Below are positions 3,557-49,750 of a DNA stretch of 49,750 nucleotides, in pieces. The stretch comes from a virus. Under the pieces are notes generated by a model. The model made no database searches and had not been told where the DNA came from. It worked only from the letters and a program-made list of their open reading frames with translations. The translations under genes were made by a program, and so were the position numbers. The stretch spans positions 1 through 49,750 of the IMG/VR virus record IMGVR_UViG_3300044641_002729; one strand, 5' to 3'. Position 1 is the stretch's first letter. Each line of letters opens with the position of its first letter.

Positions 3557-4005
3557 TACTCACAAGCATCCTGCTAACAGCCTCGATATTTGGACCAATC
3601 GAATCAAAGGACAACAACAAGATAGCAGACTGCATAGCATTGGTAGAAAGCGGAGACAACCACCTTGCCATAGGAGATGGCGGTAAGGCGGTAGGAGCCT
3701 ACCAGATGCACAGACAGGCTTGGGAGGATGCCAACAAGCTGCGGCAGCTGAATGGTCTGTTGCGTCATTCTTGGTCCTCTCGGTTCAACCCTGCTGTCCA
3801 GCGTGACATGGCTCTCGCCTACATCCAATGGATAAGGAGGGCGTTCTATTCTTCATACGGCATACTCCCTTCACCTATGCATGTCTATCATGCATACACC
3901 ATGGGCTTCACGAAGTCGAAATCAGTTGACTTTGGCATGAACGAACTGCCATCATTCAAACGCAACGCCATACAACGCTTCACCACACTATACAATAACA
4001 GATGA
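3553..4005 (+). CDS. endolysin, lytic transglycosylase / lysozyme-like
   Basis: A protein of 150 residues that probably cleaves host peptidoglycan at lysis. The segment ALVESGDNHLAIGDGG followed by AVGAYQM (residues ~29-54) is the typical catalytic block of SLT/lysozyme-fold enzymes, with E32 as the likely catalytic acid. The hydrophobic N-terminus (MILTSILLTASIFG) looks like a signal or SAR sequence, which would allow export without passing through the holin pore. It lies far from the holin and spanin candidates at 43.1-44.2 kb. It overlaps both neighbours by four bases (ATGA). TTGCGTCATTC occurs at 3760, read as L-R-H-S. Confidence 0.75.
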   Translation: MILTSILLTASIFGPIESKDNNKIADCIALVESGDNHLAIGDGGKAVGAYQMHRQAWEDANKLRQLNGLLRHSWSSRFNPAVQRDMALAYIQWIRRAFYSSYGILPSPMHVYHAYTMGFTKSKSVDFGMNELPSFKRNAIQRFTTLYNNR

Positions 4006-5712: not shown

Positions 5713-5928
5713 ATGAGCAAAACATACGCATGCGACATCCTGCCCAGCCATGAGCAGAACTATGAAACCAAGGAGATGGGCTGGGTAGTCCGTATCCACG
5801 ATGAAACCAACGACCTCGCTTGCGAGCGTTGGTATGACACCCAGAAAGAAGCCGATGCCTTCATCGAAGGCTTTGTCGCACTTTCGGAGTTGCAATCCAA
5901 TGACGGCATCATCAACCTTGACGAATAA
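5713..5928 (+). CDS. small acidic hypothetical protein
   Basis: A protein of 71 residues beginning MSKTYACDILPSH. The open frame extends upstream only through a TTG at 5662, which would make the TTGCGTCAATC element coding. The ATG at 5713 follows a 16-base A/C-only leader like those of other genes here, so I prefer it. The protein contains a pattern (WVVRIHDETNDLACERWYDT) compatible with a small alpha-beta fold. No family was recognised. Confidence 0.65.
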   Translation: MSKTYACDILPSHEQNYETKEMGWVVRIHDETNDLACERWYDTQKEADAFIEGFVALSELQSNDGIINLDE

Positions 5929-11039: not shown

Positions 11040-11064
11040 CACATCGGACACATGACGGCTCACA

Positions 11065-11096
11065 GGGGCTGGCTTAATCGCCAGCCTCTTTCTTTG
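11065..11096 (+). terminator. intrinsic terminator
   Basis: Stem GGCTGGC (11067-11073) pairs with GCCAGCC (11080-11086) with a six-base loop, followed by TCTTTCTTTG. It is again followed directly by the TTGCGTCANTC element. Confidence 0.88.
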
Positions 11097-11107
11097 TTGC
11101 GTCACTC
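11097..11107 (+). repeat. TTGCGTCANTC element after a terminator
   Basis: The copy TTGCGTCACTC starts a 38-base leader closely similar to the one at 10131. Both contain TCCCTGC near the start and TGCCATG at the end. Confidence 0.8.
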
Positions 11108-11134
11108 CCTGCTCGTGCCTTGTGTGTCCATGCC

Positions 11135-11299
11135 ATGAAACAAATCATCCTCACCCTCCTCGCTCGCATGCTCCTACGCATGTCGGGCTTCACCCTGCGA
11201 GTCAGCGAAGGCTTGCTCGCCCTCTCCAACGAGTGTGCGTATCAGGAGTTTATCTCCCGCAAGCGTAAGCAACTCGCCCTCGACATCCGCAACTACTGA
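11135..11299 (+). CDS. 54-residue hypothetical protein
   Basis: This short gene runs from the ATG at 11135 to TGA at 11297-11299 (MKQIILTLLARMLLRMSGFT and onward). The first ~20 residues are hydrophobic with basic residues, like an amphipathic or membrane-associated helix. The remainder is charged. It is supported by its place between a duplicated leader and the next element-plus-start, and by GC-rich codon use like that of its neighbours. Confidence 0.6.
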   Translation: MKQIILTLLARMLLRMSGFTLRVSEGLLALSNECAYQEFISRKRKQLALDIRNY

Positions 11300-29511: not shown

Positions 29512-32500
29512 ATGTCACAAGAACCAGGAAGCTATAGCGGTGAGCCAGGTAATAATATCTTCGAGGAAATACAGAAGAGTGGTAGCACATCATCACCGTC
29601 ACAACAGTATATAACGCAAGAAAGAGCACTTGCTGACATATCACCACAGACTGGAGCAACACCAAGCGGGAGTGTTAGTTTTGGCGGTAATGCATACGGA
29701 GCCAGAACATCACCATACATGGAGACTGCTGGCTCACAGGGTTTCCAGGAATTTACGGGTGCAGCTGGTAACGCTGCTATAAAGACTGCGGCTGTTCTTC
29801 CAGCATTTACACTGGGTGCTGCACCTATAGCCGCCTATGGTGCTGGTGCTGGACTGGGAGGATTTGGTTCTGCCGTCCTTGGATTTACTGGCGGCGGTGC
29901 TCTTGCTACTGGAGTTGGTATGGGTTATGACAGCCTTGTTGGACCTGGTGGTCTTCAAGGTCAGCAGCAGTATCAGAGAATGGATGAATCTGGTGCAACG
30001 CTTGCTGGTGAAATAGCGCCCCTTTTGGGTGCCATGGTTCCCTATGGTGCTGGTTCATGGAATCTTCCGAACATTGGTGCTGGTGCAATAGCGGGTGGAA
30101 TTAATGCCGTTGCAAGAGAGGGTGTGTATAACCCACAGGCAACACCAGGAGAAACGCTTGGCACGGTAGGACTTGATGCAGCAATGGGAGCTGGGTTTGG
30201 TGCAATGAGACCTACGATGCTTGGTCATGCACTGGCTCAACCAGGCATAAACGCTGGACTTAACAATCCACTTTATAGAGGTGTCATTAAGAATACATTC
30301 TTTGAAGGAGCCAACTCTCCAATGGTCCGTGATGGTTCGATGAACGGTGTTCCGCTTTCTCAGCCAGGTGGTTCTGCTACGGCATATGACCCAATAAGTG
30401 GAACTGGAAGAGTATCCTACAGGAACGCAGACGGTTCAATAAGAACGGCAAACTATACCAACCTTGAGGGACAAGCTGCAAAACTTAGCGGTGCCCAGAC
30501 CGTTGGAATGCCATACGCAGGAAGGGAAGCTCCAGACTTTTACGCATCTACATATAACAAGCCGAATGTTGGACCTAACTTACAGAACGAAGGACCTATA
30601 GATGTAGAGGCAACACAGGGCGGACCAAGCCCACGACTCAAGGCCCCCAATTGGGGAGAAGCTGGAGATGTCGGCAAGCCAAATGGAAGAGGTCCAGTTT
30701 TTGGACAAGACGCACAGGCACCAGGTCCAAGAACTCAGCCAACACCAGTGGCAGAGCAGGGTCCAGCACCGACAACAGGAGAAACGCAGACACCATCTAC
30801 TGGCGGTGCACCAAAGCAAATAGGCGAAACGCCCACACAAACTACTGGCTCAACGCCAGCCGAAGTTATTTCTGGAACCGAAAACCCACCCGCAACCACA
30901 GGTGGTGGTGCTGCAGCTCCAACAGCTGGAGAAGTTGGCAGACCAGTCCAAACAGCTGAAAGACCTCCAGTTTGGACACCGCCTCCCGTTGTTGGAGGTG
31001 GAACTAGCCCAATCGCAACAACTGGAACAACTGCCGAGGCTGGAACAACCGATGTAGCTACACCCACAGGGTCAGTTGGTAAGCCGTCTGCTGGAGCCGC
31101 TGGTGGCGAGGGAACTACAACAACAGGAACCAAGCCGACAGGCGGTCTCGCTGAATCCGTTGTGTCAATCCCAGGCGACTCTCTGGCACCTGGAATTCCA
31201 GATAGAAAGAAGGATGCAACAAGGGAAGACATTCTTGCTGGAACAAGAGGAATGGATGAGGCTTCCTATGGCGTAGAAGCATCATTTACTAATGACGAAA
31301 GAAAGCAGCACTTTGATAACAGAGCGAAGCACCTTCTTACGGCAGACCCAAAGACGCTGAACGAAAAAGATATAAGAGATAGAGCCACCATTGTTGGCTC
31401 GGCAAAGCCATCGGTTCCATCTACCAATGCCACATATACTGGACCAAAACTTCCATCATTTGTCGCAGCTGGAATAGCCGCTGGAAAGACGATAGACGAG
31501 GTGTTTGAGAATGTTCCAGAAACTCAGAAGCAGGAATTCAGCGGGTGGGTTCGTGACTATAAGATATGGATGGATAGCATATCACATGACAATAAGTCCC
31601 CTGCCGAGATAGCAACCACATCTACACCTCAGTCCATAGCAAACCAGAATGCTGCGATAGCAGATGCTGGATACATGCCAAAGGATAATCAGATTACAAC
31701 AGACATAGCTGCTGGTGGGCAGGTTGTTGCCATATCAGATTATAACAATGCAACATACGACAAGGCACAACTTAACCATGATGAAGGCACATACATAAGG
31801 CATCCGCAGACCAAGAAGGTCGTTAGCGTCCAGATGCCCAACGGAAGCGTCAATCACTACGAGGTTGCTGGACCGCTGTTTGTCAACGGTCTGGCTCGTG
31901 ATGCGAGCGGTAACATAATATCAGATGACCCTGTTTCAATGTATGAGGCAAGCGTTTCTGGAAAGCCGACACAGGTTGGAACCCCAACTGTTCTTCAGTT
32001 CACTCCTAATGCTGCAACATCTGTTACACCAATTGAGGCATCCAGGCTTCTTCCTAAGCACACCAACAAGATACCCGCACAGAAGCCCGTTCGTCAGCCG
32101 CAGGTTTCTGCTCCAGTTGAACCAGTGGCCGCTGCTCCAGCTGCTCCAGCCAGAACATCAACCGCAACCGTGGCTCCCTCGGCAGGAGCTTCTGTAGCTA
32201 CACCCACAACAACATCAACACCCGCACCGCAAGCTTCAAGCAAGCCCAAGGGAACTGTTGACTCAAATGGTCACACTAGAACACAGAATGATGACGGAAC
32301 ATATGAGATAAGAGGAAAGAGGTTTGTCATTACAACATCGACCAATAGCGATGGAGAAACGGTAGTTCGAACGAGATGGACAGAGCGTGCCATGGGTGGG
32401 ACTATATTTAAAGACGAAACGGAAACGATGAAGGCTTTCGAAAAACTCAACAGCCATGAGGAGGCAGCAAATAAGATATTAAAAAAGTTTACACAAATAG

Positions 32501-35500
32501 TTGAAAAGAAGATAAGAGAGGAAGAAGAGAAAATAGAAAGTCTGAAAGCCAAACTTCCCGCAATAGACCCTAAGAGCGATAGGTACGAATATGTAAGCAA
32601 AATAATAAAAGACAAGCAAGAGGGTTTGGAGCACGACAAATTAACGCTTGATGAATTGACTGGCAAGAATGCCAAACAGGAAGAGGCAGAGCAGCCAGTC
32701 GCAACTCCAGTCGCAGCGACTGCGGAAGAACAGCCAGCGACTGAAGAGAATACTACTCCAAAGGCAGAGGAAGAAACTACAAAAACAGTTACTGAATACA
32801 GGGGGAGTCACAAAGCACCAACTGGTAAGAACGGAGAAGGCTCTATTGATTCAATGGATAAAACATATCCAGATGATATATATTCAAGCAATGGTGCTAG
32901 GTACTATGGCTCTGGAAATACTGCAATGGACAAAAAGGCTCACGATTTGATTATAAGTCTTCGTGGTAAGCCAGATTCTTTGGTTACAGTTTATAGGGCC
33001 ATACCAAAAGGTGTTGCTGGACAGATAAATGTCGGAGACTGGGTTACTCCAATAAGAGAGTATGCAGTTGGTCACGGAGAAAGATTTGAAGAAGGATTTA
33101 ATATTTTAGAGAAAACAGTAAGAGCTGGAGATTTATTTACTGAGGGAAATAGCATTTATGAATTTGGACTTGGTGATTCAACACAAAATGATGCACAGAA
33201 ATCCGAAGCAAGTGCCAGTGAAAAGGAGATGGATAGGCAGATTGCCGAAGCAGAAAAAGCCGAGCAGTCGGCAGTTCCGCCAGTCGAAGACCCTAAAGAG
33301 GCCTGGAAAGAACATAATGAAAACCAGGAAGCAAATACTCCAATAATCTCAACGCCATCTACCGATGCCATACCTGCTGCAGCTAAGGATGGAAAAAGAT
33401 ATAAAAACTTCTCAGCATCAATAACCGTCAAAGACGGCAAGATTAAGTTCGGTGGAAGAGGGCAAATCACTACCACGATAAATGATTTTGACGAACAGTG
33501 GCAGACGCTCATACGCTCGTATGCTTCAGACGAAGCAGAACCCATGCGTAGCGGTGCATACCCAGCTTTCTTTGATAATGCAAGTGCTGGAGGCCCTGGA
33601 AGTTGGATTACATCGGCAATGCCAATGACAAATGGAAACTTCTTGATATACGAAGTTAATCCTTATGGAAAGAAGCCAGAAGGTAATGCGGCAAACAGAA
33701 CGGTTAGACTGTTTAGATATGTTGTCAATTCAAGCGGAAATCAGCTCCTTCAGCCGTTTGAGGTCGGTAAGTTTGAACTCACTGGGTTCAAGTCAAACGA
33801 CGGAAAGTATGCAATACCTGCATTGCTACACGCCATGCTAGTTGCCGCTGACGACTATACAAAGTCGAAGTCAATGTCTGTGGAAGATGTCCTTGAAGTG
33901 AGCGGTGGAAGAACTCCTCTTACTGGAATCATAGACTCACAGCTTCGTGACTATGAAGACAATCAGATAGCACCAGTCGGAATTAGGTCAAGAATGGAAG
34001 AGTTTAATTCACTTCCACTCGGACTGTCTATAAACAATGCAATCATTGTTTTCATGGCAGACCCCACAAACAATGACAATGCGAAGGTTCTTGCCTATGA
34101 GCTTGAAAACAATGGCAACCTGGGCAAAGACATGGCTAGAAAGTTTGTCAGAGATATCATTGACGCACAGGGCGGAGACCAGTCAATGATTAACTTCAAT
34201 GTCGTCAGAAAGCCAGAAGACGATATGTTGTACCCAGAGAGGGTGGAATCTGGACTCAACAAGAGAACTGCAAAGATATTTGAGGAGTGGCTTAAGCGTG
34301 GAAGAAAAGCACTTGTTACTGAGGTTGGAACGGATGACCCAAAGACTGGACTTCCAATGCCAAAGGAAATACAGAAGCCAGGAACAAATCCACAGGGTAA
34401 GCCATGGACAAAGATTAAGAAAAAGGCTGACGGTTCTACAGATTATGACGCTGATGGAAACCCACTTACCGAACCCTGGATGGTTCCAAATCCGAAGAGA
34501 TGGCTCATAGAATATCCAGAATTTGTAACAGAGGAAACATTCCATGTAAAAGACAAGGACGGAAAAACAAAGTTTAAGCCAATGCCATACCAGGTTCGTG
34601 GCATGAACGCTGCACTTGGAAGATTCTTGAACGGCTCAAGTCCAGTCAAGACTGGCGAGGTTGCAAGAGCGTTCCTCAACATGGACGCACCTGGTCTCGG
34701 AAAGACAATACAGATTCTTGGAACCGCAAAAATGTGGCACGAGAAAATGAAGGAATGGACAAAAGACCCAAATAGCCCATGGTATGGAAAGCCAGCCAAG
34801 GTTCTTGTTGTTTCTCAGAACAGAACAATTCTTAAGAATGCATTCGGTGGTGACGCTGAAAAAATGGGTCTCGACCTTGGTGGTGAATTTGTAGACATGG
34901 GTGGAGGACATATTAAGTTTGTCCCGAAGAAGACAAGCGGCACAGAAGAAGGAGGCCTTTCTATTGACGGTGATGAATCGTGGATAGATTTTGCAACATA
35001 TAGCGACATTAAGCCACAGATGGAAGAAGTTCCAGTTTGGATTGATGCAGAGAAGAAGGTTCCAAAGATGGTTCCAAAGTATGTCATGAATGATGGTGAG
35101 ATAGTTATCGGTGCAGATGGACAGCCGATGATTGAACAGGAGTCGGACGGAAAGGGCGGAACAAGAGATAGAATGGTTCAAGCTGTTGAAGAGATACCAA
35201 ACGGTCCGCCCAAGAAGGGTGCTGGAGAGTGGGGACTAGTCATATTTGACGAGTGTCATAACATGAAAAACATGGATTCTGGCCGCTCACAGGCTGGTCA
35301 TGACCTATTCATACGCTCACAGCATGTCATGCTTGCAACTGGCACGCCAATAGACAAGCCGCACCTGCTCGGTTACTTCATTGCGATGGTTCTGGATGTT
35401 TCGCTTCACGAAATAGCACCAGAGCTTCAGATGAAGGTGCAAGGCTCAAAGATGTCAAAGACAAGAAAGGCAAAAGGATTTACTGCACAAGACTTTAGAG

Positions 35501-38500
35501 ACTCGCTTTCAATTGAACACTGGGGCAAGCTGTCCAAGGAAAAGCAGCAGGAAGTATTCCTTCTTGCTTTGCTTGGCATCAGAAGAATTAGAGATAGAGC
35601 TGGAAGCCTTGGAAGACTTATAAGAAGAGGAAAGGGATTCTTCGGAATACCAGACCTTTGGTTTGATTGCACCGACTCCATGACCCCAGAAGCTAGGGAC
35701 ATGATAGTCAAGCATGAGATATGGTGGGCTGCTACAATTGCCGCCACGCCTCCCGCATCAAGAAGAAACAAGATTGGAGAAAAGCTGATGGAAAGCAAGA
35801 GGCTTGCAGCTTGTATAAAGCTCGGAGTTCCTAATACTAACTTCAACTCAACCGATGAGCCAAAGGGTGCCCTGCGAATTGCTCTTAACGAGCTTAAGGC
35901 TGGAAGAAAGGTAATAATAACTGTCGATACTACGAACGAAGACGGAACCATAGACCCAACTCTTAAGAGCAAGTTTAAGGGTCTTGTCGGTCAAGACGGA
36001 AGACCCACTACTTATGACAGTGAATTTACAATGCTCAAGTCTTACTTAGATAAGGCTGGAATAAAGTACGGGACAATAGTTGGTGCTGACGCAAAGGGAA
36101 GACAGAAGAGCATAGCAGACTTCCAGAAAAATAACATGGATGTTCCAGTCATAATCATGACGATAGCATCTGGTGGAACAGGACTCAGCTTGCAGGACTT
36201 GTTTAATGTATATAGAGAATGGGGTTACGACAGAAAGACTGGCTCACCCAATATTCAGCTTGGTGAAGAGTATGACGCATCTATCGGCAAGAAGCCGTCA
36301 GAAGGCAGAAAGTTCGTTTCTGGAGCTGGAAAAGAAGGTCTTCTTCCGCCACTCCCCACATCAACTACTGGAGACAGAGCAAGGCGTTACCTTGGCATGG
36401 TTGCCACTGAGGGAACATCATATGACAAGCCACTTCCTACGGACAGCCATCCGAGAAGCATGATAATAGTCTCAGCCCCATGGGGAGGTGACTCCGTTGA
36501 GCAGGTTATAGGAAGAGCTGACAGAATGAATACCACTACACCAACAAGAGTGTTTTGGATGACCACAGAAATAGCATCTGGGGATAAGCGTCTTATAGAG
36601 CTAGTCAGAGCAAAGATAGCAACGCTTGAATCAATGATTCAGTACGGTGACGATTTGGATGCACTTATTGCTGGAGGAATAGAAGCAGAAGGCGTTAAGT
36701 CGCCTATCGCCCAGGCCGCTGAAAGCGGACAGAGCAAGAAGCTTCCCAAGGATGCCGCAACAAGGCTGGCAAAAACAGCACTTGAGGCTGCACTTACTGG
36801 AGAGCAGACGGTCAAGGAAAACAATGAATCTAAGATTGCAGAGGTTCTTGGGGAAGACCCAGAACTCAGCATTCCAGCCAACAAGAGAAAGGTTCAGAGA
36901 TGGAGAAGTGCCGTCAAGAAAGCATCAGCTTCAATAGACTCAATAAAGGTTGCCCTCAAGGAACTCGATGACGGAACACTTGACCCGTATTCTGTAGACC
37001 CGAGCAAGATTAAGGAGTGGCTGCAGAGCAGAGGCCTGTCTCCTAGCGGTGAGAACGAAGACGGTTCAGACATTGACATAGAGGAGGACCCAGAAGGTGA
37101 CAGCATGAACAACTTGTTTAAGAACATAATAAACAAGAATGTCATAACCAACTCCAATGGTGTTGCTATGATAAAGGCACCTGGAAACACCAAGGGCTCA
37201 AGAAATAGGCTGAATAATATCATACAGAATTTGTATGGACTTCAGTCTGGAATAGTCCCGGAAACAGCAAGGCCAGAGGTCACAGAGGAAGTTAACAAAA
37301 TTATAAACGCCATAGTAAGACCATACAGGGCTGCATATGCAAATGGTGAGATAAACTCACGAAGATTTGCCGCCATGCTTGGCTTCGCAAGGGATATAGC
37401 CTGGAGACTCAAGGACTATAGCATCAATTCTGTATACGCATCTACGAACGAAGAGGCGATGAAGAAGGCAGAGCTTGGTGCTGCTGGTGCGATTAACATA
37501 TCGGCCAGGGAACTGATGACCCTCATATTCAGCGAAAAGGTATCCATGTCGCTGTATGGAAACAAAACAACGCTTACTGCAAAGTCTGCAATGTACACGA
37601 CATTCCACGAAATTGGACATGCCTTGATGCGTATGATACCAGACGACATAAAGGTCGGAATGATTAAGGAACTTGAAGCCGCAAGAGCAGCTTGGTTCGC
37701 AAGTCTCCCAGAAGGAGATGTCAGAAAGGCACTCTCTATGCCAGAGCACGACTGGCACTACACGGCTGGCATGAGAAACTTCTCATTCTCAAGGGAGAAT
37801 GTAACTGGATACCCGATAGGAAAAGAGTTTAGCCCGTCATCAAAAACATATGAGGGGATGGCATACTCTGGTAACTCAAAGACAAAGAGAGGCCGAGGAA
37901 CTGGTGCAAACTTCTTTGCGTCAGCTATGGTTTCCCTCGCTCTTGCAAGGTTTGCCGAAGACCCGAATGGACTGGGGAATTCATCAAAGGCGAATAAACT
38001 GAGAGAAGCTGCTGAAGTTGAGTACAGTGGAGTCGGACGGCCAGGTCAGCTTGGATTTAAGGCTGGAAGCGGACCGATTGCTCCGTTCATGGCACTGTTC
38101 AACCTTGGGGTTGGATATAACTTGAACGAACTGATGTATAAATCTAAGGCACCAGTCGTTGAAATATGGACAACAAAGACATCTGACCCAGCTTCACCAT
38201 ATGAGATAAGCAAGTCATCTGGTTCACTTTCCGCTGGAGTAATCCACAAGATGATTCAGAATGGTGAAGGATTTATAACCACTGACCCAGACAATGCGAG
38301 CAATGCAAAGATTACAACAATCCTTCCAAATGGTAAAGTACAAGTTACCATAATAAACGCAAAGGCTTACCTTACCGCACTCTCGGATGAATACCTTGAG
38401 CTTGTCAAGGGTCAGTCTGAGGGTGGAAAACTAACCGCACTTGCAGACGGAAACATACTGAAGGAATTCATATATGGTTCAACTGGTATTGACCACCTCA

Positions 38501-41500
38501 GACAAAGCCAAAACATAAGAAGAATATCATCTGGTACGGCTGAAAATAGAATCTACAGACTTACAAGCCTTGACGAGTGGCTTGCTGAAAATACCGCAGC
38601 TTACTGCAGAGACTACTACATGCTAGGCAACTACAGCGAGGAAGTTTCCATGACTGGTGACATCGTTGCGTCACTCTTTGTGCATGCATCATCTGGCGGT
38701 GACTCAAGACTTACTAGAAGAATAATATCTGGCATATTCCAGAACACGATACCAGAGTCAAAGGATGCATCGGAAAGCGGGACTGAATACTATAGAAGAT
38801 ACGGTGACGATAATGATAAAGCATTGAGAACTGGAAATCAGCAGTCTGGCTCAACATCTCCTCCTATGATTAATAAAAACATTCTACCCAAGGGTATGAG
38901 TGTAGCAGAGGATTCAATATTGAAGAGCGGAAGAGGAGCCACATTCAGTGCTTCATCCGTTAAGACGGTCAAGGAATGGGTATACAACTTAACCCAGCTT
39001 AGGGACTGGGCTATAGAGAGTGCTGCTGGTGCCGTTCCATCAATGAAAAAAATCGCAAACGCAGTGGCAAAGATAAAGTCAATGCGTTCCGAAACAAAGT
39101 CAATGCTCAAGGCACCGCTAACATACGGTGGTGAAGGTCTTGTCGGGACACTGATTGGACAGATAGAGCAGATAGCCAGAATAACAGACAACGATATGAT
39201 AAGAGACCTCGGTAAGAGGCTTTACAATAGACCAGATACTGGAGAGGTCAGCAGAAATACATTCACTGAAGACATGACCGTCTATAGAAACTATTGGCAG
39301 CATGTCTTTGATTCAATAGTCAAAAAGCACCTTGGTGAAACGATAGACAGGTCATCTGAGTCAAGAGACAGACTCTTGTCGCTCAAGAAAGCTTTTGACA
39401 TTTCTGGCAAGACAGCAACACCAAAGCAAGAATTCGTTGATAAGCTTGCTGAATATGTACTAAATGTACTGCACCCAGAGTTCAACAAGATGAGAAGGTC
39501 TCTCATGGAGGCAAAGGCTTATGCGGCTGAAGATAAGTGGGATAAGCTTCCAGCAGACCTTAAGGAATATCTTGATTCGATTGGAATACAAATACCACAA
39601 AAGCTTGGTATTCTTGCTACCATGATGTTGCAGGAAGAGGCACAGGCGAAACTTGATGCTGGCAAGTACGGCAAGGGTAGCAAGTATGACAATATAAAGT
39701 TTGGAAGAGAAGCAGACGAATACCTTGGAGATTACTTTGAAGAAGGAACAATAGACAAGCTGATGATGGATGTGGGAAGATGCATGTCTATCCCAAGGAG
39801 CATGCCAAACTATGAAAGCTATGTGAAGTCAAAGTTCTCAAAGGAGGTTATAGATTGTGCCCATGATTTGACTGAAAACTGGGCGAAGCCGTACAGAAAG
39901 TGGGCAGATTCGATGGGTGAAGGAATAGACGACTGGGGTACATCGTGGAGACCAAGAGTCATGGACTCAGATTCCATTCATGGAGTCAGAGACGGAGTGA
40001 GAAACAGGTCCGACTCGTTCATACTTAAGGCTGCAAGCACTATATACAAAGACAACAAGCACCAGAGAATATTGCTTCCAGTGTCATTTAAGAAGTTCTT
40101 TGAAGACAATAACTACTTCATTGAGTACGGAGCAAATAGCGAAGATGTAAACCCGTCAAAAACAAAACTTGGAATAAACCAGGCTTATAGACTGGCCGAG
40201 GAATGGAGAAGGGAATTCTCGGCAAAAAATTTGAATAAATATCTGACAGAAAGAATTAAAGCAGTGCTTATGACTGCAGGTATGTCTGAAGAAAAAGACA
40301 TAACTCATCTTGATGATTTCGGATTTGATGTTGACATAAAGCCAATAATCATGACCCCAGTTTATCCTACTCCAGAAACAGGACTGAAGGTCGTTACAAC
40401 AAAGGCAATAAGCATAGCTGTTGCCCTCCGTGCTTACAAGAGACTGCTAGAGACAGTCACCAGTGCCGATGTCGGTGGTGCGTTGACTGGAGAGAAAGAG
40501 ATGATTGACAGGGCAATCGAGAGACTTGACGAGCAGCACAACAGAAAGTTCCTTGAGAATAATCTCACACAAATTGACGCATTCAATCTGGCAAGACAGT
40601 TCTCAGACAGGGTTTTGCATAAGGCAATGGGGCTTGCTTCATCTGGGAACGGATACGCTGACATATTTGGTGGACAATACGGAGACTTGAATAAGGCGGA
40701 CAGCCAAAAGCAGAGACTCATGGAGTGTGAGTTTGCCGATAGCATACTCGGAGAGTTTTACACGAACGATGTTCGTATATTTGGAAAGCACTATAATGAA
40801 AGCGTAACAAAGTCCATAATCATAAGGCACCACATTCCAGAAAAGTTCTGGAACTCGCTCCAGAAGTCGGTTGTTTCAAATCCAAATTCGACACATTATT
40901 GGCCCGACATTTGCTGGACAGTCAGAAGAATAACGGAAAGCGACCAAGAAGAGTCATCAAGTGGTCTCGTTAATTCGATGCTTACCCTTGCGGCACATTC
41001 ATTGTTCATGACCGCAACATCAGCTCTGCAGTTTGCAGAACCGCTCGTGTTCGGTACTGTCTTCAAGCAAAAAAACTTTGCGGCATCTGCCGTAGAGTCA
41101 GCGAAGGCCTCTGGTGGAAACCTAAGAATGGTCCTCGTATCAATAGCAAACTCGCTGGCAAGCGTGTCAACTCAGCTTGCTACACTCGGACAGTATGAAG
41201 CAAAGTATTTCCCTGGACTCAAAAAGATGTCAATGGAAGATGAGTTTTTCACAAGACTTGCAAGAAGAATTGGAATAGTCCAAAGCAAGTATCTTGAGAA
41301 TCTCGACACGAGCACTGCCGACAAGCGTGGTCTGGCACAGAGAATGTCAGACAGAGCACTTCAAAGATTCCATTATTCTGGAAGCGGATTAACTGCTGTC
41401 ACGGACTCGTCAAGAGTTGCCGTTATGAAATCAACGATAATGGCACTTGAGCAGATGGCTGATGAAATCGTAACCAAAACAAGAGCAAAGAATGCCAACG

Positions 41501-42768
41501 GAATGTGGGTTAGAGGTGAAGAGCTGTCCGTGCTTTCTCCGAATGAAATAATGATGATGAGAAACATGGGCGTGGTTGAGGGTGAAATGTCAAGATTTCT
41601 TGAGTTTTGCCTGTCATACAGAGCGTCTATAACTGGAGACTATTCAACCATGTCACCACAGATGATGGAAGATTTGATTGAAACAGAGACCCAGATGCTT
41701 CCCCGTTTCAAAAAATTTCCACAGGGAAGAAGAAGTGCATCTGAAATAGCCAGCGACAACAGAGTTAAGGCTACATACTTTAATGCTCTGGCAAGAATCA
41801 ACTTCATGACCGTGCAGGTCAGCTCAAGGGCAACCGAACAGAGAACGAGAGCCGCAATATCAAGATTAACATCTGCTAGTACGGCAAGAACCATATTCTT
41901 CCTTTCTCACTACGGTTCTTCCCTTTCAAGAAATGTGCTCCTTCCTGCCGCAAGAGTGGCGAAGTCAATGTTCCAAGGAAAGCAGAGCCAGTTTGCAGCA
42001 ACCCCTGGAAGGCATGATGCTGCATTAAGACTTAACAATCTTCCGCCTGGAACATACATAACCAATACGGCAAACCCATACGCTGGATACAGGAATGCTG
42101 CTGGTGCACTTGCGTCAATCACGGCAGTTTTTGCTCTCATGGTTGCCGCAAACTACGAAATAAGACACCTCCGCAGCCAAATCAGAAAGAACCCATCAAT
42201 ATACATCATTGATGAGCCGACAAACTCGGTAAAGATTGCCGCTGCCATAGACTCTGCTGGCGGACTTGGAAATGTGTCCCTTCCGTTGAACCTGGTTCTT
42301 GGCGGCATTAGATACAACCGCTCTGCCTCCCAGATGGTGGCTGGTGCATACCCAGGAAAGGTGTTCCAGACGGCTGACGATGTAAGAAATGCCTATTCTC
42401 CCAACAATAGAAACTCTCCCAACACACCGACTGCTGAACGAAGAGTCGCTGGTGACATATACGATGTTGCGTTCATACCAATAGCAACACAGGCATTTAC
42501 CTACATACTTCCAAGGACTAATGTCGGTGATATGTTTAATTTTGCAGCCGTACAAGCCATGTCACACCCAGGAGCCAAGGAAGCATTTAAGCGTGCCTGG
42601 CCTGGCTCTGGTGAGGCTGTTCCACGAAGAAAATCTGAGCTTGACTCGATGTACAACGAGGGAAAGATAACATTCTCTATGTATATGAGTGCATTAAGAC
42701 AAAGAAAAGAATGGGAAGCCGCAAACCCAACAAAGACAGATGCAATAGGCGAAAGGGAGCGTAGATGA
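29512..42768 (+). CDS. giant polyvalent virion protein (ART-like, SNF2 helicase, zinc peptidase)
   Basis: A protein of 4,418 residues, over a quarter of the genome. In order: a Gly/Ala hydrophobic stretch (~87-140); Thr/Pro/Gly low complexity (~397-547); a charged coiled coil (~982-1017); an ADP-ribosyltransferase-like part (~1095-1217: VTVYRAIPKG, then GDWVTPIREYAVGHG); an SNF2/DEAD-type helicase (~1690-2340) with DAPGLGKT (~1725), DECH (~1913), ASGGTGLSLQ (~2218) and IGRADRMN (~2333); and a metallopeptidase with HEIGH (H2699, E2700, H2703) and a likely third ligand in EWLAENTA (E3026). Near ~3820 and ~4196-4215 hydrophobic helices occur. Such polyvalent proteins are injected with DNA to counter host defences. 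This fits its place after the ejection genes but is inference. TTGCGTCANTC occurs at 38666 and 42110. Confidence 0.8.
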   Translation: MSQEPGSYSGEPGNNIFEEIQKSGSTSSPSQQYITQERALADISPQTGATPSGSVSFGGNAYGARTSPYMETAGSQGFQEFTGAAGNAAIKTAAVLPAFTLGAAPIAAYGAGAGLGGFGSAVLGFTGGGALATGVGMGYDSLVGPGGLQGQQQYQRMDESGATLAGEIAPLLGAMVPYGAGSWNLPNIGAGAIAGGINAVAREGVYNPQATPGETLGTVGLDAAMGAGFGAMRPTMLGHALAQPGINAGLNNPLYRGVIKNTFFEGANSPMVRDGSMNGVPLSQPGGSATAYDPISGTGRVSYRNADGSIRTANYTNLEGQAAKLSGAQTVGMPYAGREAPDFYASTYNKPNVGPNLQNEGPIDVEATQGGPSPRLKAPNWGEAGDVGKPNGRGPVFGQDAQAPGPRTQPTPVAEQGPAPTTGETQTPSTGGAPKQIGETPTQTTGSTPAEVISGTENPPATTGGGAAAPTAGEVGRPVQTAERPPVWTPPPVVGGGTSPIATTGTTAEAGTTDVATPTGSVGKPSAGAAGGEGTTTTGTKPTGGLAESVVSIPGDSLAPGIPDRKKDATREDILAGTRGMDEASYGVEASFTNDERKQHFDNRAKHLLTADPKTLNEKDIRDRATIVGSAKPSVPSTNATYTGPKLPSFVAAGIAAGKTIDEVFENVPETQKQEFSGWVRDYKIWMDSISHDNKSPAEIATTSTPQSIANQNAAIADAGYMPKDNQITTDIAAGGQVVAISDYNNATYDKAQLNHDEGTYIRHPQTKKVVSVQMPNGSVNHYEVAGPLFVNGLARDASGNIISDDPVSMYEASVSGKPTQVGTPTVLQFTPNAATSVTPIEASRLLPKHTNKIPAQKPVRQPQVSAPVEPVAAAPAAPARTSTATVAPSAGASVATPTTTSTPAPQASSKPKGTVDSNGHTRTQNDDGTYEIRGKRFVITTSTNSDGETVVRTRWTERAMGGTIFKDETETMKAFEKLNSHEEAANKILKKFTQIVEKKIREEEEKIESLKAKLPAIDPKSDRYEYVSKIIKDKQEGLEHDKLTLDELTGKNAKQEEAEQPVATPVAATAEEQPATEENTTPKAEEETTKTVTEYRGSHKAPTGKNGEGSIDSMDKTYPDDIYSSNGARYYGSGNTAMDKKAHDLIISLRGKPDSLVTVYRAIPKGVAGQINVGDWVTPIREYAVGHGERFEEGFNILEKTVRAGDLFTEGNSIYEFGLGDSTQNDAQKSEASASEKEMDRQIAEAEKAEQSAVPPVEDPKEAWKEHNENQEANTPIISTPSTDAIPAAAKDGKRYKNFSASITVKDGKIKFGGRGQITTTINDFDEQWQTLIRSYASDEAEPMRSGAYPAFFDNASAGGPGSWITSAMPMTNGNFLIYEVNPYGKKPEGNAANRTVRLFRYVVNSSGNQLLQPFEVGKFELTGFKSNDGKYAIPALLHAMLVAADDYTKSKSMSVEDVLEVSGGRTPLTGIIDSQLRDYEDNQIAPVGIRSRMEEFNSLPLGLSINNAIIVFMADPTNNDNAKVLAYELENNGNLGKDMARKFVRDIIDAQGGDQSMINFNVVRKPEDDMLYPERVESGLNKRTAKIFEEWLKRGRKALVTEVGTDDPKTGLPMPKEIQKPGTNPQGKPWTKIKKKADGSTDYDADGNPLTEPWMVPNPKRWLIEYPEFVTEETFHVKDKDGKTKFKPMPYQVRGMNAALGRFLNGSSPVKTGEVARAFLNMDAPGLGKTIQILGTAKMWHEKMKEWTKDPNSPWYGKPAKVLVVSQNRTILKNAFGGDAEKMGLDLGGEFVDMGGGHIKFVPKKTSGTEEGGLSIDGDESWIDFATYSDIKPQMEEVPVWIDAEKKVPKMVPKYVMNDGEIVIGADGQPMIEQESDGKGGTRDRMVQAVEEIPNGPPKKGAGEWGLVIFDECHNMKNMDSGRSQAGHDLFIRSQHVMLATGTPIDKPHLLGYFIAMVLDVSLHEIAPELQMKVQGSKMSKTRKAKGFTAQDFRDSLSIEHWGKLSKEKQQEVFLLALLGIRRIRDRAGSLGRLIRRGKGFFGIPDLWFDCTDSMTPEARDMIVKHEIWWAATIAATPPASRRNKIGEKLMESKRLAACIKLGVPNTNFNSTDEPKGALRIALNELKAGRKVIITVDTTNEDGTIDPTLKSKFKGLVGQDGRPTTYDSEFTMLKSYLDKAGIKYGTIVGADAKGRQKSIADFQKNNMDVPVIIMTIASGGTGLSLQDLFNVYREWGYDRKTGSPNIQLGEEYDASIGKKPSEGRKFVSGAGKEGLLPPLPTSTTGDRARRYLGMVATEGTSYDKPLPTDSHPRSMIIVSAPWGGDSVEQVIGRADRMNTTTPTRVFWMTTEIASGDKRLIELVRAKIATLESMIQYGDDLDALIAGGIEAEGVKSPIAQAAESGQSKKLPKDAATRLAKTALEAALTGEQTVKENNESKIAEVLGEDPELSIPANKRKVQRWRSAVKKASASIDSIKVALKELDDGTLDPYSVDPSKIKEWLQSRGLSPSGENEDGSDIDIEEDPEGDSMNNLFKNIINKNVITNSNGVAMIKAPGNTKGSRNRLNNIIQNLYGLQSGIVPETARPEVTEEVNKIINAIVRPYRAAYANGEINSRRFAAMLGFARDIAWRLKDYSINSVYASTNEEAMKKAELGAAGAINISARELMTLIFSEKVSMSLYGNKTTLTAKSAMYTTFHEIGHALMRMIPDDIKVGMIKELEAARAAWFASLPEGDVRKALSMPEHDWHYTAGMRNFSFSRENVTGYPIGKEFSPSSKTYEGMAYSGNSKTKRGRGTGANFFASAMVSLALARFAEDPNGLGNSSKANKLREAAEVEYSGVGRPGQLGFKAGSGPIAPFMALFNLGVGYNLNELMYKSKAPVVEIWTTKTSDPASPYEISKSSGSLSAGVIHKMIQNGEGFITTDPDNASNAKITTILPNGKVQVTIINAKAYLTALSDEYLELVKGQSEGGKLTALADGNILKEFIYGSTGIDHLRQSQNIRRISSGTAENRIYRLTSLDEWLAENTAAYCRDYYMLGNYSEEVSMTGDIVASLFVHASSGGDSRLTRRIISGIFQNTIPESKDASESGTEYYRRYGDDNDKALRTGNQQSGSTSPPMINKNILPKGMSVAEDSILKSGRGATFSASSVKTVKEWVYNLTQLRDWAIESAAGAVPSMKKIANAVAKIKSMRSETKSMLKAPLTYGGEGLVGTLIGQIEQIARITDNDMIRDLGKRLYNRPDTGEVSRNTFTEDMTVYRNYWQHVFDSIVKKHLGETIDRSSESRDRLLSLKKAFDISGKTATPKQEFVDKLAEYVLNVLHPEFNKMRRSLMEAKAYAAEDKWDKLPADLKEYLDSIGIQIPQKLGILATMMLQEEAQAKLDAGKYGKGSKYDNIKFGREADEYLGDYFEEGTIDKLMMDVGRCMSIPRSMPNYESYVKSKFSKEVIDCAHDLTENWAKPYRKWADSMGEGIDDWGTSWRPRVMDSDSIHGVRDGVRNRSDSFILKAASTIYKDNKHQRILLPVSFKKFFEDNNYFIEYGANSEDVNPSKTKLGINQAYRLAEEWRREFSAKNLNKYLTERIKAVLMTAGMSEEKDITHLDDFGFDVDIKPIIMTPVYPTPETGLKVVTTKAISIAVALRAYKRLLETVTSADVGGALTGEKEMIDRAIERLDEQHNRKFLENNLTQIDAFNLARQFSDRVLHKAMGLASSGNGYADIFGGQYGDLNKADSQKQRLMECEFADSILGEFYTNDVRIFGKHYNESVTKSIIIRHHIPEKFWNSLQKSVVSNPNSTHYWPDICWTVRRITESDQEESSSGLVNSMLTLAAHSLFMTATSALQFAEPLVFGTVFKQKNFAASAVESAKASGGNLRMVLVSIANSLASVSTQLATLGQYEAKYFPGLKKMSMEDEFFTRLARRIGIVQSKYLENLDTSTADKRGLAQRMSDRALQRFHYSGSGLTAVTDSSRVAVMKSTIMALEQMADEIVTKTRAKNANGMWVRGEELSVLSPNEIMMMRNMGVVEGEMSRFLEFCLSYRASITGDYSTMSPQMMEDLIETETQMLPRFKKFPQGRRSASEIASDNRVKATYFNALARINFMTVQVSSRATEQRTRAAISRLTSASTARTIFFLSHYGSSLSRNVLLPAARVAKSMFQGKQSQFAATPGRHDAALRLNNLPPGTYITNTANPYAGYRNAAGALASITAVFALMVAANYEIRHLRSQIRKNPSIYIIDEPTNSVKIAAAIDSAGGLGNVSLPLNLVLGGIRYNRSASQMVAGAYPGKVFQTADDVRNAYSPNNRNSPNTPTAERRVAGDIYDVAFIPIATQAFTYILPRTNVGDMFNFAAVQAMSHPGAKEAFKRAWPGSGEAVPRRKSELDSMYNEGKITFSMYMSALRQRKEWEAANPTKTDAIGERERR

Positions 42769-45807: not shown

Positions 45808-46428
45808 ATGTCCAACATGAAGTTCACATCCGAAAGCGGTCTTGGCGACAAGGCCGAACTCATCCCGCAGGGCACGCTCGTCAAGGCCGTGGTCACTGTC
45901 AACGCCATCAAGCAGTCACAGGCGACTGATGGCCGATACATGCAACTGGAGTTTACAGTCTCCGATGGCATCTATCGTAACCGCAAGATTTGGGACCTCG
46001 TGTGCGACCCGCACGATGAGCGTAACAGCGAGAACTGGCGTAAGATGGGTATGCTTTCAATCACCCGCGCTTTTGAGGCTGGTGGCGTGTTTAAGCACGA
46101 CGACGAGGCTACTTATGAAGCCATGGAAGGCAAGTCCTTCGATGACATCGCCCGTCTTTTAGATGGTCTGGAAGTCTCCATCAAGGTGAAGGTCGAACGC
46201 TCGTCCGACCCTGCTCACGCTGATAAGAACAAGGTTGGCGAGTGGCTGACCCCTAATCCGAAAAGCAGCGGATACACTGGTTGGAAGAAACTGCAGTCTG
46301 AGGCTAACTCCAGCAACGGTCAAGCACCCGCTGGAAACCCACAGGCCAAGTTCTCCAATCCTTCCAGTGGTACGACCCCCGCTTGGCTGAAGACCCCAAA
46401 CACTGGGAAGAGCAATCTCCCCTTCTAA
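45808..46428 (+). CDS. DUF669-type ssDNA-binding protein
   Basis: A protein of 206 residues. The N-terminal half (LVKAVVTVNAIKQS, then RYMQLEFTVSDGIYRNRKIW; ~residues 24-62) is an OB-fold-like DUF669 pattern. The C-terminal third is Gly/Ser/Pro-rich and ends in SNLPF, similar to the short hydrophobic tips by which SSB proteins recruit partners. It follows the Sak4-like gene, the usual pairing. The ATG follows a 31-base leader of only A and C. AGGAGG occurs, but more than 30 bases upstream, too far for a Shine-Dalgarno site. Confidence 0.7.
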   Translation: MSNMKFTSESGLGDKAELIPQGTLVKAVVTVNAIKQSQATDGRYMQLEFTVSDGIYRNRKIWDLVCDPHDERNSENWRKMGMLSITRAFEAGGVFKHDDEATYEAMEGKSFDDIARLLDGLEVSIKVKVERSSDPAHADKNKVGEWLTPNPKSSGYTGWKKLQSEANSSNGQAPAGNPQAKFSNPSSGTTPAWLKTPNTGKSNLPF

Positions 46429-46446
46429 AAACTAACAAATGAACAA

Positions 46447-46537
46447 CCCCCAAGCATGCAATTTTGTGTGTGGATTGCATGTATGCCTTACGACACTGGT
46501 CATGGCTGAAAAGTGTCGTAAGGCGGGGGCCCACACA
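46447..46537 (+). ncRNA. candidate structured RNA with three-way junction and pseudoknot
   Basis: The 122-base gap after the ssDNA-binding gene can fold as follows. P1 pairs CCCCC (46447-46451) with GGGGG (46525-46529). P2 pairs CATGCAAT (46455-46462) with ATTGCATG (46474-46481) around an 11-base loop. P3 is a perfect 13-bp stem, 46485-46497 with 46512-46524. The P2 loop TGTGTGG (46467-46473) is complementary to CCACACA (46531-46537), giving a 7-bp pseudoknot that ends 13 bases before the next ATG (46551). There is no T-tract, so it is not an intrinsic terminator. It could be a riboswitch, a protein-binding leader or a small RNA. Confidence 0.6.
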
Positions 46538-46550
46538 TAAACTTAAAAAC

Positions 46551-46790
46551 ATGAAAGACATTACCATTAAAAACCTAACGCTGATGAAAGATAATCTTTC
46601 TGATGCAATGATTAACAAGAAGGCTTATACAGTAACAGACCCCTCCAAACTAATCGACATAATCGACTCTTATATCCAAATCCGCCAAGAGCGTGACACC
46701 TATATCGGTGAAAGGGATAAGTTAATGAAGGTTCTCGGGACCCTGCAGTGCATGGCTGAGTCCGTGCAGGAAATCATGGAGGAAAACTAA
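46551..46790 (+). CDS. small hypothetical protein downstream of the RNA element
   Basis: A protein of 79 residues starting MKDITIKNLTLMKDNLS. It is helical and charged (IDIIDSYIQIRQERDTYIGE). No family was recognised. Its start lies 13 bases after the predicted pseudoknot, so its translation would be the natural target of any switch. An upstream ATG at 46464 in the same frame lies inside the P2 loop and is disfavoured. Confidence 0.65.
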   Translation: MKDITIKNLTLMKDNLSDAMINKKAYTVTDPSKLIDIIDSYIQIRQERDTYIGERDKLMKVLGTLQCMAESVQEIMEEN

Positions 46791-48709: not shown

Positions 48710-48996
48710 ACAACGAAACACCACCAATGAATGAGCCAGAAGACAACGCAAAGCGTGAAAGGCTTTCGCTCCAGAACGCAGAGATGATGTTCATGGATGG
48801 CTTTGACAACTGCCTCATCGGTACCGTCATGCTTGGTTCAAAGGTCGTAGCCTGTTACGATGTCGCACTGATAATAAAGCAGCACATCGCTGACGGCATG
48901 ACTGAAGACGAGGCGTGGGAGTACTTTGAGTTCAACCAGTTGTCAGCCTACATTGGAGACAACTCCCCTGTATTCCTAGTCCGAGACGCAGGATAA
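48706..48996 (+). CDS. small acidic hypothetical protein (full copy)
   Basis: A protein of 96 residues starting MNNETPPMNEPEDNAKRERL, the complete form of the gene cut at the start of the window. It is acidic at both ends, with a middle (TVMLGSKVVACYDVALIIKQ) that alternates strand and helix. It overlaps the nuclease gene (ATGA) and the primase-helicase (TAATG), so it is read as part of the same operon. No family was recognised. Confidence 0.75.
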   Translation: MNNETPPMNEPEDNAKRERLSLQNAEMMFMDGFDNCLIGTVMLGSKVVACYDVALIIKQHIADGMTEDEAWEYFEFNQLSAYIGDNSPVFLVRDAG

Positions 48997-49750
48997 TGAT
49001 TGACCAATCAAGGGTTGCTACGCACTTGCAACTCCTCTTTCCGTGTCCGCTCACGGAAAAGGAATACATTTGCTTGCGTGGCATAGGTGAAAAGGGAACC
49101 GAGCGAGAGGGCGTGTTCAAGGAGGATATCTTCCTCCATCCATTCAGCGACCCTGCTTGGATAATACACGCATGTAACCATGTTAAGCGTTGGTCCGACA
49201 ACTCTATTGCGTCATTCGTAGTACCAGGTGCTCTCAAGGAGGCAAGGGGAACCGCTGAAGCCGTGACTTGGCTGGCTAACATCGTAGTCGATATCGACAG
49301 CGGTGACACGACAACCAAGTTGCAGCATGCCGAGAAGTATCTGGGCAAGCCGACCATGATTGTCGAGTCTGGAGGAACAACCGATGAGGGGTTCCCGAAG
49401 GTGCATGCCTATTGGCAGATACCCCCGACCTCCGACATCGCAGGTGTGGTGAAACTCAGACACGCTCTCGCAATCGCAGTGGGCGGGGACCCCCAGTTTG
49501 GACTTGGCGTTGCGTCAAACCCATATGGGCGTGCACACCAACCAGTCCGAATTGCTGGCTCGCTCAACTGCAAGGGAGGAAACAAGAAGCCAGTCTCCAT
49601 CAGAGAGCACAACCCAGATAGCCTCATGCAAGACCCGACTGAACTGCTTACGCTCGTTGAGTCGATGCCAAGAGCCCCAGGTCTGCCAGAGATTACGGAA
49701 GACCAGCGATATCAGTTCAAGGCAGAGAAGAAGGTCGAACTAACAACCGA
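48767..49750. repeat. terminal direct repeat, copy 2
   Basis: It matches bases 1-984 with 25 substitutions and no insertion or deletion. The translated products of the shared parts are the same. Confidence 0.9.
48996..49750 (+). CDS. AEP primase-helicase, second copy, cut by the window end
   Basis: These are the N-terminal ~251 residues of the gene at 230-2536 with 23 synonymous base changes. It covers the AEP signatures but not the helicase domain. It is best read as the same gene met again after closing the circle, not as a second gene. Confidence 0.85.
   Translation, partial: MIDQSRVATHLQLLFPCPLTEKEYICLRGIGEKGTEREGVFKEDIFLHPFSDPAWIIHACNHVKRWSDNSIASFVVPGALKEARGTAEAVTWLANIVVDIDSGDTTTKLQHAEKYLGKPTMIVESGGTTDEGFPKVHAYWQIPPTSDIAGVVKLRHALAIAVGGDPQFGLGVASNPYGRAHQPVRIAGSLNCKGGNKKPVSIREHNPDSLMQDPTELLTLVESMPRAPGLPEITEDQRYQFKAEKKVELTT

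Follow-up and report, generated by a model that had tools for sequence, protein, structure and literature searches.

We describe a structured RNA of about 91 nt, encoded in a phage replication operon directly downstream of a gene for a single-strand DNA-binding (SSB)-like protein, in which a three-way junction is combined with a pseudoknot formed between a hairpin loop and the 3' tail. The element is almost certainly a real, conserved structured RNA, as indicated by compensatory changes in its three nested stems and by its presence at the same site in all seven of the closest relatives, and it is previously uncatalogued.

Genomic context of the RNA element

The sequence analyzed, hereinafter the window, comprises all 49,750 bases of the IMG/VR virus record IMGVR_UViG_3300044641_002729 and encodes a terminase, a portal protein, a major head protein, a primase, a Sak4-like annealing protein, an SSB-like protein, and a Cas4-type exonuclease, along with seven tRNA genes. 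Positions 1-984 and 48767-49750 of the window constitute a direct terminal repeat; the two 984-base copies differ by 25 mismatches, many of them spaced by multiples of three bases, as is typical of coding sequence. The record resembles one complete turn of a genome of roughly 48.8 kb, with ends originating from two variants. Elsewhere in the window, a single open frame of 4418 aa (29512-42768), found here in a phage of such size, includes in its middle a stretch with helicase-like motifs, seen by eye, and an intergenic region at 11040-11239 folds strongly (z -5.0).

The RNA element (46447-46537, + strand) occupies a 122-base gap between the gene for the SSB-like protein and the gene for a 79-aa protein (Table 1). 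Annotation of the neighboring genes agrees with the original prediction, made from the sequence of the window, that the element is located next to an SSB gene within a replication block. The SSB-like protein matches single-strand DNA binding families of PHROG at E values of 1e-4 to 7e-4, and its top PHROG match is phrog_2300 (E 2e-16), a family the function of which is unknown. For the 79-aa protein, searches against Pfam and PHROG produced no match.

Table 1. Coordinates of the RNA segments and flanking genes in the window
Feature	Position	Strand	Remarks
SSB-like protein gene, 5' neighbor of the RNA	45808-46428	+	206 aa, C-terminus ...NLPF; relatives L001-L007
P1, 5' strand (CCCCC)	46447-46451	+	in subfamily B, GU-CCC with bulged partner
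P2, 5' strand (GCAUGCAA)	46454-46461	+	fold and comparison with relatives
P2-loop segment (UGUGUGG), 5' half of pseudoknot	46467-46473	+	UGUGUG unchanged in 8/8
P2, 3' strand (UUGCAUGU)	46475-46482	+	fold and comparison with relatives
P3, 5' strand, 13 bp	46485-46497	+	compensatory pairs: 3 versus L002, 4 between L004/L005 and L007
P3 loop	46498-46511	+	UCAUGGC conserved; YRUGGY in relatives, by row comparison
P3, 3' strand	46512-46524	+	fold and comparison with relatives
P1, 3' strand (GGGGG)	46525-46529	+	fold and comparison with relatives
Tail (CCACACA), 3' half of pseudoknot	46531-46537	+	CACACA unchanged in 8/8
Spacer (UAAACUUAAAAAC) ahead of ATG	46538-46550	+	unpaired in fold; without Shine-Dalgarno
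3' gene, two-helix 79-aa protein	46551-46790	+	kept in 7/7 relatives

Fold and stability

In the fold, the closing stem P1 and the hairpins P2 and P3 form a three-way junction, to which the pairing between the P2 loop and the tail adds a pseudoknot. The helices are largely those originally predicted: P1 consists of five C-G pairs, P3 of 13 Watson-Crick pairs, and the pseudoknot of seven Watson-Crick pairs, growing to 11 once wobbles are allowed, with its end 13 nt ahead of the ATG at 46551, as had been claimed. The eight pairs of P2 are present as well, although this hairpin is not quite as perfect as described, with seven Watson-Crick pairs and a basal G-U pair.

The nested part of the fold has a minimum free energy of -47.8 kcal/mol (z -5.7), with 0 of 200 shuffles as good, and the RNA site shows the lowest z value (-6.6) of all 110-nt segments on the + strand of the record. 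A loose descriptor of the architecture (P1 of at least 3 pairs, P2 of at least 5, P3 of at least 9, and pseudoknot of at least 6) matched the + strand of the window solely at the RNA element and yielded 35 matches in 400 dinucleotide shuffles, and a stricter version (P1 of at least 4, P2 of at least 8, and P3 of at least 12) yielded none in 400 dinucleotide shuffles of the window. The segment ranking second in stability for its composition, 48961-49070 (z -6.3), served as a control; as it includes the primase gene start and relatives do not preserve its fold, we attribute this signal to chance or coding.

Homologs and covariation

A search of viral contigs (IMG/VR) for relatives of the SSB-like protein identified 50 loci. 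In the seven closest of these, L001-L007 (SSB identity 63-98%), the homologous gap contains the fold in every case, between the SSB homolog and the same 79-aa gene. The RNA starts 18 nt past the SSB stop codon in the window and 3-18 nt past it across all eight members, and 11-19 nt separate the pseudoknot tail from the ATG of the same downstream gene in all eight. The search for homologs with a covariance model, suggested as a check in the original prediction, succeeded: model R1, built from L003-L007 alone, with the window left out, recovered the window copy at 46447-46562 (E 2.4e-5), and it also found L001, with at most one copy per record. L002 was not reported by R1 at E<=10. Additional profile and motif scans of viral contigs detected no members beyond L001-L007, and cultured phages yielded no homologs; bacterial genomes contained no relative of the SSB-like protein, and their motif matches, among those listed, were chance only.

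The eight members fall into two subfamilies. Subfamily A (the window, L001, and L002) has tight junctions, and subfamily B (L003-L007) follows the pattern GUCCC-NA-P2-NNAAU-P3-A-GGG-C-A, in which P1 contains a bulged C; in 4 of its 5 members, an extra hairpin, ACCN-GAAA-NGGU, precedes the pseudoknot tail. The junction letters are conserved within subfamily B only, and the YRUGGY motif in the P3 loop is kept by most members.

When the helices of the window and L001 were compared with those of L002 without gaps, none of the 33 pairs was found to be broken, and six were changed on both sides, namely, two in P1 (C-G pairs replaced by U-A and A-U in L002), one in P2, and three in P3; the controls gave a mean of 2.0 double changes for shuffles and 0-1 for slid alignments. 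Likewise, between L004/L005 and L007, 4 of 31 pairs are doubly changed, all in P3, with none broken. A hand alignment of the eight rows has 264 of 265 cells paired and double changes in 24 of 40 pairs, but because the structure guided its construction, the ungapped comparisons provide the stronger evidence. Read on the + strand, the wobbles comprise seven G-U and no A-C pairs, and therefore, selection acts on the sense-strand RNA. Thus, homologous gaps do not break the pairs without compensation, an outcome that had been named as contrary to the prediction; rather, the pairs of P1, P2, and P3 are kept by compensatory changes. The expectation of covariation was borne out for these three stems but not for the pseudoknot, which has an invariant core and one covarying pair only.

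Judged from sequence comparison, the predicted pseudoknot is the least proven helix, and it is supported by being invariant, by extending to 10 bp in L006, and by the one covarying pair. The UGUGUG/CACACA core is identical in all eight members while the surrounding stems diverge, and because it never varies, it provides no covariation. In L006, the pseudoknot comprises ten contiguous pairs, the seventh being A-U in place of G-C. Compared with composition-preserving shuffles, the nine pairs of L002 reach p 0.004 and the pairing in L006 reaches p 0.0002; taken alone, the window, L004, and L007 do not reach significance (p 0.14-0.32). In L003, a second stretch complementary to the loop, 8 nt long, touches the ATG.

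Relation to known RNA classes

The claim that the element belongs to no known class is upheld by an Rfam search of the window, which matched tRNAs only, none of them at the RNA element; a permissive search returned only chance matches that scored under the gathering threshold, mostly to miRNA families, and none of the ribozyme classes of Rfam was matched. Nor did the element match a known terminator or a coding gene, the other findings named beforehand as contrary to the prediction. Specifically, the stem is followed by GGGGGCCCACACA, with no U run, and no terminator-like site was called there, so an intrinsic terminator was rejected. Coding across the RNA was rejected as well: the in-frame extension from the ATG at 46479 is not conserved, with ATG-TAA in L003 and a run into a stop codon in L004. 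Readthrough or frameshifting at the SSB stop codon does not fit the variable spacing to P1, the closed frames of L002-L004, and the conserved PF at the SSB C-terminus. Finally, pairing between the P3 loop and the start codon would suit L002 and L004 but not L005 or L007.

In some riboswitches, for example, SAM-IV and cobalamin, the 3' tail is the pairing partner of a hairpin loop. The window RNA resembles these in that a loop to 3'-tail pairing closes the junction beside the ribosome start region, but it has a different junction, no pocket letters common to all members, and no Rfam similarity. The STAXI motif, a pseudoknot present in two or three tandem copies, is found near SSB and other genes for DNA manipulation (PMC2864571). 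Like STAXI, the present element is a pseudoknot RNA near SSB; unlike STAXI, it is a three-way junction, is present once in the window and no more than once in any relative, and has no Rfam match.

Different RNAs after SSB in distant relatives

In relatives whose SSB is 40-48% identical, the same post-SSB site is occupied by different RNAs. The family C RNA (L008-L042; for instance, L008:3733-3835, L035:3706-3816, and L020:3686-3790) is about 100 nt long and forms a three-way junction; its loops CCGUCGGU and UGUUGGG are invariant, and its tail is C-rich. Among the 15 distinct sequences folded, double changes occur in 22 of the 33 predicted pairs, and an Rfam search produced no match. This RNA lies 6-10 nt ahead of a helicase gene, or inserts lie in between; in L030, a tRNA-Met (CAT) gene (3924-3996) has been inserted downstream of the family C RNA, ahead of the next gene. 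Similar to the window RNA, family C is a strongly covarying three-way junction located directly after SSB and near the next ATG, and a hairpin loop might pair with C residues in its tail. In contrast to the window RNA, however, it has an unrelated sequence, is not matched by R1, and differs in the order of the arms, with the tail-complementary loop on the second hairpin. Family C thus looks like another new RNA family. A third structure after SSB, the family D RNA (L043-L050; for instance, L043:2643-2735 and L048:3687-3779), has a long closing stem with inner arms and shows compensatory changes by eye; the next gene encodes either a helicase or a different ORF (C5-methyltransferase-like by eye). 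The presence of three unrelated RNAs after one gene suggests a shared need at the post-SSB position.

Possible functions

We propose that the pseudoknot controls translation of the 79-aa gene, a reading to which we assign a probability of about 0.47. The element would act in cis, as a single-copy RNA in the phage replication operon, with its three-way junction locked by the pseudoknot between the P2 loop and the tail. The pseudoknot would tie up the C/A-rich stretch at which translation of the 79-aa gene starts and so lower or gate this translation relative to that of SSB; the start would become accessible once a small molecule or a protein, whether SSB, the 79-aa protein, or a host factor, opened the pairing. 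Masking of the start is proposed because the CACACA of the tail is a C/A-rich leader stretch, to which UGUGUG is the complement. An SD-like site precedes only 3 of the 45 candidate genes in the window. Leaders are enriched in CACA/CAAC motifs (CACAAC, for example, is seen 5 times versus 0.5 expected), and C/A-rich leaders are found in several early genes, such as those starting at 5713, 6492, 9330, and 45808, the last being SSB itself, with an open leader. Given that most genes have no SD and several early genes use open C/A-rich leaders, masking of such a leader would make an effective switch. In Bacteroidetes lacking SD sites, secondary structure around the start codon tunes initiation (PMC6847099).

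The function may, however, belong to the SSB mRNA, because among the different RNAs of distant phages, SSB is the constant and the downstream gene changes. The fold could then block 3' exonucleases or mark a processing site, keeping the SSB message stable and abundant, with the proximity to the ATG being incidental. Such a role, which we consider possible but rather unlikely, would account for the start of the RNA 3-18 nt past the SSB stop codon in all eight members and for the two unrelated, covarying RNAs that directly follow SSB in distant relatives, ahead of a helicase gene or another ORF; yet a plain hairpin would be enough for this purpose, leaving P1, the second hairpin, and the invariant loop-tail pairing 11-19 nt before the ATG unneeded. 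A further alternative is an operator of the type found in gene 32 of phages T4 and RB69, a pseudoknot of about 28 nt that is located upstream of the phage's own SSB gene and accompanied by UUAAA repeats and an SD (PMC535899). By analogy, SSB or the 79-aa protein might bind the RNA, cover the A-rich spacer, and block the ribosome. The likeness lies in the replication operon, the adjacent SSB gene, and the succession of a pseudoknot and an unstructured A-rich leader, and the conserved YRUGGY in the P3 loop is as expected of a protein site. Nevertheless, the RNA is a larger three-way junction without an SD that lies 3' of SSB and before another gene, so the analogy fails on location, a defining feature, and the 79-aa protein has no recognizable RNA-binding fold; we regard this possibility as unlikely.

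A metabolite riboswitch with the junction as its pocket appears improbable. The compact junction with a pseudoknot beside a start codon would suit it, as would the junction letters of subfamily B, which are nearly invariant while the arms diverge, but the window and L002 are without most of these letters (AA/GA, AU/UU, and no J3/1), which is odd for a ligand pocket; moreover, there is no biosynthesis or transport gene, and the examples number only eight. Least probable is a structure acting at the DNA level, that is, a cruciform, a replication origin, or a packaging signal: the strong inverted repeats within a replication block would be compatible with it, but the wobbles, when written as DNA, are G-T on the + strand only, as expected of RNA, and the position relative to the start codon is conserved.

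Control of the 79-aa start by the pseudoknot, our preferred reading, could also be part of a broader pattern. Conceivably, the post-SSB gap is a hot spot of RNA replacement, with at least three unrelated RNAs succeeding one another there in the same job, that is, sensing the SSB level or the replication state and gating the next gene through a loop-tail pseudoknot that hides its SD-less, C/A-rich start; we consider this extension doubtful.

To our knowledge, phage mRNAs have yielded few RNA families with covariation support, with very few in phages without Shine-Dalgarno sites. The RNA described here offers a compact case in which hiding of a start by a pseudoknot can be checked through simple UGUGUG/CACACA swaps and, together with the two other covarying post-SSB RNAs, marks a defined place to seek replication-linked RNA control in phages. 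Should the post-SSB gap indeed be such a hot spot, the window RNA would represent one class of a new regulatory system.
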